NCBI GenBank assembly: GCA_903926385.1
Contig: CAIYIS010000083.1
Span: forward strand, 1-64,000
Length of the DNA: 64,000 nucleotides
Direction: 5' to 3'
Origin: an uncultured Bacteroidota bacterium
GTDB taxonomy: Bacteria; Bacteroidota; Bacteroidia; 2-12-FULL-35-15
Shown here: positions 22,060 to 42,280 of the stretch, piece by piece
How positions within the stretch are numbered: the stretch's first letter is position 1
Layout: the number at the start of each line of letters is the position of its first letter
Position numbers and translations under genes: made by a program
The notes under the pieces: model-generated
Database searches by the model: none
Told to the model about the DNA's origin: nothing
The model's input: the letters and a program-made list of their open reading frames with translations, nothing else

Positions 22060-22137
22060 TTGGTTTAAAAAATGAGAAAAAACAACCTCAATTAGTGCTA
22101 AAATGAATAAATCACTAAAAAATAACACATTAGTCTT

Positions 22138-22502
22138 CATCAGAAGTCCTTCGCGCCTCAGCAGATAACCTTCGGGAGTCAGCAGATGTCCTTCGGGAGT
22201 CAGCAGATGTCCTTCGGGAGTCAGCAGATGTCCTTCGGGAGTCAGCAGATGTCCTTCGGGAGTGAGCAGATGTCCTTCGGAAGTGAGCAGATGTCCTTCG
22301 GGAGCCATCAAATGTCCTTCGGAAGCCAGCAAATGTCCTTCGGAAGCCAGCAGATGTCCTTCGGAAGCCAGCAGATGTCCTTCGGGAGCCATTAGATTTC
22401 CTTCGGAAGCCAGCAAATGTCCTTCGGGAGCTAGCAGATTTCCTTCGGGAACCATCAGATTTCCTTCGGGAACCACCAGATTTCCTTCGGAAGCCAGCAG
22501 AT
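22138..22502. repeat. 21-bp tandem array 2 (about 17 units)
   Basis: The longest array of the window: 17 head-to-tail units with core CAGATGTCCTTCGGGAG and period exactly 21 bp. Units fall into graded subtypes (GGGAGTCAG at the left, GGAAGCCAG in the middle and right). Several frames stay open on both strands, producing heptapeptide repeats such as LASEGHL and MSFGSQQ, with no clear translation signal for any of them. It is GC-rich relative to its flanks and lies upstream of the orphan gene at 22621. Confidence 0.92.
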
Positions 22503-22620
22503 TTCGAAAAACAAGCTCCAAAAAGCGTTATCCACCATACACATTCAATTTTAAACACAACAAATATTAATTTTTAAACATCAATTAAATAAAAAAATAA
22601 ATCAATAAATAATAAACGTC

Positions 22621-25269: not shown

Positions 25270-25914
25270 ATGAAGAAACCAATCTTACTTTTACTTATAA
25301 CCTTTACATTTTTACAAGCCCATTCTCAAACGCTCAATAGCCTTGCCATTACAGCGGGAGTATCTTATGGCAATCAAAAATTCTTTTATGCCGATCCTCC
25401 CGATATTTCTCGCAAAAGTTACATAGCCGGTTTTAATGCAGGTGTGTTTGGAGAGTTTTTCTCCAGAGATTATGTGCGTTGGGTAACCGAGTTGCAATAC
25501 AATCAAAAAGGTTCGGTTGATAAGCAAGATTCGGCCAACTACAGCAACCAACTGCAGTACATCTGCTGGAACAATTATTTAAAAATACGATACGAACTCT
25601 TTAGTATCATCCCTTATATATTGGTGGGCCCTCGCCTGGAGTATAACATGGCACAAGCCACTTCATCTCCTGCCATCACCGGAAAGTTTTTGCCTCTCCA
25701 TGTTAGTGCTGCAGCCGGAGGAGGAATAGAATTTGTAAGTTTTTATAATTTTAAATTCTTTGTCGAAGGGTTTTACAATCCTGATGTAATGCCTGCTTAC
25801 ATCTCGCCTGAACTCCACATTCCGAATAAAAATTTTGAGCTTAGGGTTGGATTAAAATACGAACGTGCTGCACGCAGAGAAAGGTGCAACACGCCCACAT
25901 ATATAGAACAATAA
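25270..25914 (+). CDS. PorT-like outer membrane beta-barrel protein
   Basis: 214 residues. Signal peptide (1-19, QAHSQ), then alternating amphipathic strands: ITAGVSYGNQKFFY, FNAGVFGEFFSRDYVRWVTELQYNQKG, LQYICWNNYLKIRYEL, YILVGPRLEYN, FEFFV-type final strands and LRVGLKYER. This matches the outer-membrane beta-barrel (PorT/OMP_b-brl_2) family. Cargo or role unknown. The last ~95 bp of the gene are duplicated at 26086-26168, beyond a palindromic element. Confidence 0.8.
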   Translation: MKKPILLLLITFTFLQAHSQTLNSLAITAGVSYGNQKFFYADPPDISRKSYIAGFNAGVFGEFFSRDYVRWVTELQYNQKGSVDKQDSANYSNQLQYICWNNYLKIRYELFSIIPYILVGPRLEYNMAQATSSPAITGKFLPLHVSAAAGGGIEFVSFYNFKFFVEGFYNPDVMPAYISPELHIPNKNFELRVGLKYERAARRERCNTPTYIEQ

Positions 25915-25921
25915 AATATTG
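25826..25921 (+). repeat. Original copy of a duplicated gene end
   Basis: The last ~90 bp of the PorT-like gene plus AAAATATT. It is repeated directly at 26074-26169 with about five substitutions (for example GCACGCAGAG versus GCACGCAAAG). Confidence 0.9.
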
Positions 25922-25953
25922 TATTAATCCCTAAGATTATTTATTAGTAGTAC

Positions 25954-26070
25954 AACGCCTCACCCCCGGCCCCTCTCCAAAGGAGAGGGGAGAATAAGTA
26001 AATGCAAAATTTAGGTTTCACTAAGCTTCGCCCCCTCTCCTTTGGAGAGGGGATAAAGGGGTGAGGCGTT
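25954..26070. repeat. REPIN-like element: two GC-rich hairpins in inverted orientation
   Basis: 117 bp bounded by perfect 13-bp inverted ends AACGCCTCACCCC (25954-25966) and GGGGTGAGGCGTT (26058-26070). Each half contains a CCCCTCTCC / GGAGAGGGG hairpin, the halves being mirror images. It carries no ORF. The arrangement is that of a REP doublet, and it lies exactly between the two copies of the duplicated gene end. Confidence 0.85.
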
Positions 26071-26073
26071 CAG

Positions 26074-26169
26074 ACGAATAAAAACTTTGAGCTTCGGGTA
26101 GGATTAAAATACGAACGTGCTGCACGCAAAGAAAGGTGCAACACGCCCACATATATAGAACAATAAAAT
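26074..26169 (+). pseudogene. Duplicated 3' fragment of the PorT-like gene
   Basis: Contains the coding sequence for the last ~28 residues of the 25270 gene (NFELRVGLKYERAARKERCN and onward) with the same stop codon and downstream bases. It has no start and no promoter, so it is not a gene. It arose by duplication across the REPIN-like element. Confidence 0.85.
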
Positions 26170-26170
26170 A

Positions 26171-26593
26171 TTATTTGGTAAGCACACACTTTAATGTGTC
26201 ATAATTAGAACTACCTGACCACACAATATAAGTCATATCAATTCTATTAGAATTAGACAATCTCCCACTTCCTGTTACTATATATCCTGGATTCGGTTGT
26301 TGTGAAGGAAAAGTAAAATTATTTCCATTAAACGTTGCATATGTTTTTTTAGTGAATCCATATAGATATCCGAAACTAATATAAGAAGCATTTGTTGAAT
26401 CTGCAATTGTTACATAATAGCTTGAAGTTCCATTAACGGAACTGTTTTCTTGTATGTACCAATTACCATGAAACCTGTCGCGCGGAGCAGCCGTAGATGG
26501 GCTTGTTGCAGGGTCGTCTGTTTTCGAACAAGAAGCTAAAAACAAAGTACTCGCAAGTAAAGCTGTTGATGCAAAAAGAAAAAGTTTTTTCAT
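26171..26593 (-). CDS. Predicted lipoprotein, 140 aa
   Basis: Signal and lipobox LFLASC (Cys ~22), a Thr/Ser/Pro linker, then a ~100-residue beta-rich domain (FHGNWYIQENSSVNGTSSYYVTIADS ... KTYATFNGNNFTFPSQQ ... RIDMTYIVWSG). The RFHGNWY opening and strand pattern resemble the lipocalin-like small lipoproteins common in Bacteroidota. Its stop lies only a few bp from the duplicated fragment. Confidence 0.65.
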   Translation of the reverse strand: MKKLFLFASTALLASTLFLASCSKTDDPATSPSTAAPRDRFHGNWYIQENSSVNGTSSYYVTIADSTNASYISFGYLYGFTKKTYATFNGNNFTFPSQQPNPGYIVTGSGRLSNSNRIDMTYIVWSGSSNYDTLKCVLTK

Positions 26594-42011: not shown

Positions 42012-42280
42012 TGTCAATAATTCATCCGATTGTTACAACCGCTCACCCGTTTGTTACAGCCGCTCACCCGTTTGTTACAATCGCTCACCCGTTTGTTACA
42101 ACCACTCACCCGTTTGTTACAACCACTCACCCGTTTGTTACAACCGCTCACCCGTTTGTTACAACCGCTCACCCGTTTGTTACAACCTCTCACTCGTTTG
42201 TTACAACCGCTTACCCGTTTGTTACAACCGATTACCTGTTTGTTACAACCGATTACCCGTTTGTTACAAACACCTGAAAT
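42012..42280. repeat. 21-bp tandem array 4 (about 13 units)
   Basis: Nearly perfect head-to-tail units with core TTTGTTACAACCGCTCACC and period exactly 21 bp. Variation is concentrated in the CCGCTCACC half, while TTTGTTACAA is almost invariant. Most differences would change amino acids, so coding selection is not apparent here. Confidence 0.92.

Follow-up and report, generated by a model that had tools for sequence, protein, structure and literature searches.

The last codons of a PorT-like outer-membrane gene are repeated on the far side of a short mobile element, and the arrangement is very probably the outcome of a normal insertion of an IS1595-type MITE combined with one microhomology-mediated illegitimate junction. 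The locus lies in the window, the 64,000-nucleotide stretch of DNA from an uncultured Bacteroidota bacterium that was analysed here. No function is needed to explain the structure, for which this ordinary, well-resolved mechanism suffices; the explanation rests on one event. The features of the locus are as follows.

25270..25914, + strand: intact outer-membrane beta-barrel (PorT-like) gene, 214 aa (ORF; Pfam PF13568 OMP_b-brl_2, E=3e-7)
25823..25920, + strand: R1, upstream copy of the repeated gene end (29 codons, stop codon and 6 bp)
25823..25828, + strand: C1, CGAATA microhomology inside the gene
25912..25919, + strand: TSD1, target-site duplication of 8 bp directly next to the element, TAAAATAT, stop codon included (register from ten intact copies)
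25920..26080, + strand: IS1595-type MITE with a complete left end, cut short on the right at CGAATA (17 other copies aligned)
25954..26070, no strand assigned: hairpin core, 117 bp, with 13-bp perfect inverted ends (the element of the first-pass annotation)
25958..25989, - strand: predicted intrastrand-triplex motif 1, CCCTCTCC-GGAGAGGG-GGGTGAGG (pattern match; motif as in PMC4666352)
26033..26066, + strand: predicted intrastrand-triplex motif 2, in the opposite orientation to motif 1 (pattern match)
26075..26172, + strand: R2, the gene tail repeated without a start codon; on the 3' side it runs towards the next gene across the ancestral junction
26075..26080, + strand: C2, CGAATA, where the MITE right end (normally ACGAATATAATCTTAGGGATAGGTGTA) meets the second gene tail
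26164..26171, + strand: TSD2, TAAAATAT, followed by TATTTGG (ancestral flank)
26171..26593, - strand: convergent downstream gene, 140-aa lipoprotein-like product (ORF; no Pfam match)

R1 and R2 form a direct repeat of 98 bp with 95.9% identity and a spacing of 252, differing at four positions (25833, 25843, 25848 and 25877); the first-pass annotation had thus recognised the direct repetition of the gene end, which it put at about 95 bp, while its count of about five changes was one too high. It was also right that the duplicate contains a stop codon and lacks a start; R2 has a 30-codon open tail. Read in the frame of the gene, three of these changes are synonymous (P about 0.046 for this bias) and the fourth is R to K, while the states of relatives at 25843 and 25877 match R2 more often than R1. 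A diversity-generating retroelement, with its variable and template repeats, was considered as a source of the two tails and dropped, since bases other than adenines also differ in what would be the template copy. Elsewhere in the window, tandem arrays with a 21-bp period occupy 22137-22505 and 42022-42269, and similar 21-bp-spaced arrays are found in many loci of the same genome.

The ancestral arrangement can be read from relatives; of 35 genomes in the same genus, 33 carry an orthologue of the gene. In two of the relatives (L032 and L034) TATTTGGT comes almost directly after the stop codon, with no element and a single tail, and therefore the downstream side of R2 is the old junction and the upstream side of R1 the old gene. 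Only one of the 36 genomes of the genus, the present one, has a second gene tail. The proposed tie between duplication and element is thus upheld by element-free relatives with one tail, and relatives lacking the element but retaining both copies, which had been named as the refuting case, were not found. Intermediates (an intact MITE at this site, or a tail-MITE-tail-MITE array) were not seen, because the nearest relative is only 76% identical in protein; when named genomes were searched for a further strain of this species, only two relatives came up, at 76% and 69%.

The identity of the element comes from its other copies. A search of the same genome with the region returned many relatives, similar to it from 25925 to 26087 and so past the 117-bp block, and an alignment of 18 copies from the same genome, window copy included, defined both ends. 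The full form consists of GGCACTAATCCCTAAGATTATTTATTAATT, the hairpin core and then CAGACGAATATAATCTTAGGGATAGGTGTA, its outer 20 bp being inverted repeats with two mismatches, and so the 117 bp first taken for the whole element are the core of a larger one, the tips of which had been missed. Intact copies are mostly 180-220 bp long, the ten both-ended copies spanning 119-243 bp, and have no coding capacity. Around these ten copies the flanking direct repeats are 87% identical over nine positions, compared with 38% in mismatched pairings; the match is 80-100% at eight of them and 6/10 at the ninth, giving a target duplication of 8 bp in which 72 of 80 bases match, a value equalled in none of 20,000 permutations. 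The ends of the MITE copies, GCAC[TA/CT]ATCCCTAAGATTAT, are also those of insertion sequences (ISs) of about 1.6 kb in same-genus relatives (G026:C10:141189-142803 and G034:C158:24808-26443), where they read GCACATATCCCTAAGATTAT and GCACTTATCCCTAAGATTAT. Each of these two ISs encodes a 323-aa protein with DDE_Tnp_IS1595 (PF12762, E=4e-31) and Zn_ribbon_IS1595 (PF12760) domains, and the one at G034:C158 (L155) has an 8/8 target duplication, ATATTTTT. In the window's own genome no paired ends 1-2 kb apart were found that could belong to an autonomous partner, and the assembly holds no PF12762 match to an IS1595 transposase. On the strength of its terminal inverted repeats, its 8-bp target-site duplications and the IS1595-family transposase in the matching ISs of relatives, the element is assigned by sequence to the non-autonomous, IS1595-type MITEs. 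Its copy counts in the genome come from similarity searches and are probably underestimates, because several contigs end in or at MITEs (C36 and C69 terminate, and C43 and C45 start, inside or at them).

The core itself is built as first described, with perfect 13-bp inverted ends and two mirrored hairpins: the inverted arms AACGCCTCACCCC/GGGGTGAGGCGTT lie at 25954-25966 and 26058-26070, and mirrored 21-bp arms, CCCCTCTCCAAAGGAGAGGGG, at 25970-25990 and 26032-26052. As single-stranded DNA the core block reaches -42.7 kcal/mol, compared with -15.9 for shuffles (z = -10.7). The structure of the locus is no product of chance. Both core halves fit the pattern CCCTCTCC-loop-GGAGAGGG-loop-GGGTGAGG, that is, the core is a predicted inverted pair of the intrastrand triplex motif (TM), rich in G/C, that Holder et al. 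2015 reported to be associated with deletions, rearrangements and genome instability and for which they found no connection to mobile elements in E. coli (PMC4666352). Rfam matches within the element are limited to sub-threshold microRNA hairpins and carry no meaning. Most same-genus genomes contain core-like blocks without the MITE (IS1595) tips; given how widespread these tipless blocks are, one of them seems to have been acquired by the MITE, rather than the reverse. The core appears to be exchangeable cargo: in two relatives (loci L156, L157 and L159; genomes G013 and G011) the same IS1595-type ends enclose a different palindromic core (GGGCTAAAGCCC .. CCTAGCCTTAAGGCTAGG). In the MITE copies at seven loci (L005, L006, L008, L010, L012, L013 and L016) an extra hairpin module of about 40 nt (GGGCAAACAGCCAGTGGCTGTTTGAGCC...) sits beside the right triplex motif. 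A core of the same type also lies between two near-identical Flavo-1 RNA genes (RF01705) at L223:1-706 (contig C49, adjoining C34, which is L224), the RNAs sitting in a 139-bp direct repeat behind a gene that resembles tatC, judged by translation. The copy on C49 (L011) was considered as a second case of long flanking repeats and not counted, since the 139-bp repeats hold Flavo-1 RNA and the copy is without MITE ends.

The window copy departs from this family at both of its ends. On the left it reads TGTATTAATCCCTAAGATTAT where other copies have GGCACTAATCCCTAAGATTAT, and the first five letters of this end (TGTATTAATCCC) have diverged (TGTAT vs GGCAC); on the right it lacks the last ~20 bp of the inverted repeat, and so only one of its ends is intact. 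It shares 94% identity with L002 across positions 6-168 of 180, and it is this identity to intact copies that places it among the IS1595-type MITEs as a truncated member, probably immobile now that one end is lost. The truncation falls at C2, and the gene contains the same CGAATA, C1, at a distance of 97 bp on the upstream side of the insertion point. R2 spans exactly from this 6-mer through the insertion site to the second TAAAATAT. A microhomology of at least 6 bp would arise at a random junction with a probability of about 0.002, and the break at a 6-bp match with the gene points to an illegitimate junction. As a target duplication, TAAAATAT alone is weak evidence, because it is AT-rich and nested in the longer repeat.

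The following course of events would account for the structure. A non-autonomous IS1595-type MITE would have inserted 5 bp past the stop codon with the usual 8-bp duplication (TAAAATAT), and during insertion or afterwards its right end would have been joined illegitimately, via CGAATA, to the gene's own copy of that 6-mer. Such a junction would remove about 20 bp from the right inverted repeat and duplicate the end of the gene from CGAATA up to and including the insertion site. The order of events and the DNA-repair route, both of which we infer, may have followed one of three courses. In route (a), right-end joining would fail in transposition and microhomology-primed copying from the sister chromosome would complete it. 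In route (b), later slipped-strand copying, aided by the hairpins, would pass from C2 to C1 and then from TSD1 to TSD2, which is equivalent to a C1/C2 tandem duplication followed by precise excision of the second MITE across the 8-bp repeats. In route (c), recombination with an element-free allele would use homology on the left and microhomology on the right. All three yield exactly the observed product.

For route (c), an incoming allele carrying R1 and the MITE would have replaced the resident gene, through homology on the left and the CGAATA join on the right, leaving the resident tail behind as R2. The synonymous bias of the differences (three of four, the fourth conservative) and the commoner states that R2, now non-coding, retains at 25843 and 25877 together with its reading frame give this course mild support; however, there are just four such sites (P about 0.046), and R1 evolving under constraint with R2 unchanged gives the same pattern. 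We hold both the replacement and the resident origin of R2 to be possible rather than probable. Slippage is known to remove hairpin elements that lie between short direct repeats. For the exchange between C1 and C2, which would duplicate tail and MITE before the second MITE was precisely excised across the 8-bp repeats, a short direct repeat is present at each step, and deletions at such motifs have been reported (PMC4666352), but two events are required rather than one, and this course we consider unlikely.

Three explanations outside the MITE insertion followed by an illegitimate junction fare far worse. A single transposition step that produced the 98-bp repeat as an exceptionally long target-site duplication is very improbable: the repeat does abut the element on both sides, but the right inverted repeat required for ordinary transposition is absent, the break falls on a 6-bp match and the other copies produce 8-bp duplications only. 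The same 8-bp duplications speak against the two origins first put forward, a large duplication arising at insertion and a flanking-sequence copy moving with the element, and a search for other copies with long flanking direct repeats, suggested at that stage, found none among the both-ended MITE copies.

There is hardly more to be said for a REPIN/REP element mobilised by a RAYT (Y1/HUH) transposase that carried a copy of flanking sequence with it. The two mirrored hairpins in the core, the core-like blocks without MITE tips in most same-genus genomes and the Y1 transposases that exist in the genus would all suit such an origin, but the inverted ends, the 8-bp target duplications and the DDE-type autonomous partner do not, and no other element copy carries this gene tail. 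REPIN transposition, being of the IS200/IS605 type, is not known to leave a target-site duplication. The label REPIN-like given at first therefore gives way before TIRs of about 20 bp, 8-bp TSDs and IS1595-family DDE transposases in matching ISs, and the check proposed with it, for a RAYT transposase associated with the element, placed the core near only one of 31 Y1 loci in this genome and the genus, about the chance level. The genome's own Y1 gene on contig C81 is flanked by a different palindrome: at L060:100-860 a Y1-type transposase gene stands between unrelated palindromes of its own (GCGAAGCTGAAGCGTTG...), in a RAYT-like arrangement. Finally, although several contigs of the assembly end within these hairpins and such regions thus assemble poorly, an assembly or chimera artefact has little to commend it, because R1 and R2 differ at four sites and a misjoin would have required the assembler to bridge just 6 bp of overlap at a unique junction, whereas neighbouring contigs overlap by 141 bp and the assembly is continuous through the site.

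The event was probably neutral, because the gene stays intact, and its biological consequence here is probably nil. Its value lies in a base-level example of a MITE insertion that left a partial copy of a neighbouring gene, in a widespread, instability-linked triplex motif tied to a mobile element, and in the demonstration that a REPIN-looking 117-bp block may prove, when the tips are aligned, to be the core of a DDE-type MITE. A broader proposal, for which we claim little likelihood, is that IS1595-type MITEs in this group captured and dispersed a triplex-forming hairpin pair that makes insertion or replication error-prone, repeatedly duplicating neighbouring gene ends via microhomology; if true, the duplication would represent a recurring route to gene-tail duplication, not a single accident.

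Of known systems, the REPIN/RAYT system (PMC3116915, PMC2817692) shares with the element two palindromic units in inverted orientation, whereas inverted ends, 8-bp target duplications, a DDE-transposase partner and the lack of a RAYT link set the element apart. The core resembles the TM of PMC4666352 in having the arms CCCTCTCC, GGAGAGGG and GGGTGAGG in the same order, in forming an inverted pair and in being intergenic, but while the E. coli motif has no mobile-element link, the pair here appears as MITE cargo. As in microhomology-mediated duplication and replication slippage at inverted repeats, the breakpoint lies on a 6-bp match next to a strong hairpin; the difference is that a transposon end takes part in the join, so that the duplicate stops exactly at the insertion site. 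The closest likeness in size, inverted-end length, 8-bp duplication and IS1595-family autonomous partner (here in relatives) is to IS1595-family MITEs such as that of ISHwa6 in Haloquadratum walsbyi, which is 165 bp long with an inverted repeat of 25 and a direct repeat of 8 (PMC3852290); what distinguishes the present element is a core made of a predicted inverted triplex-motif pair and, in the window copy, the absence of a right end, in place of which a duplicated gene tail follows.
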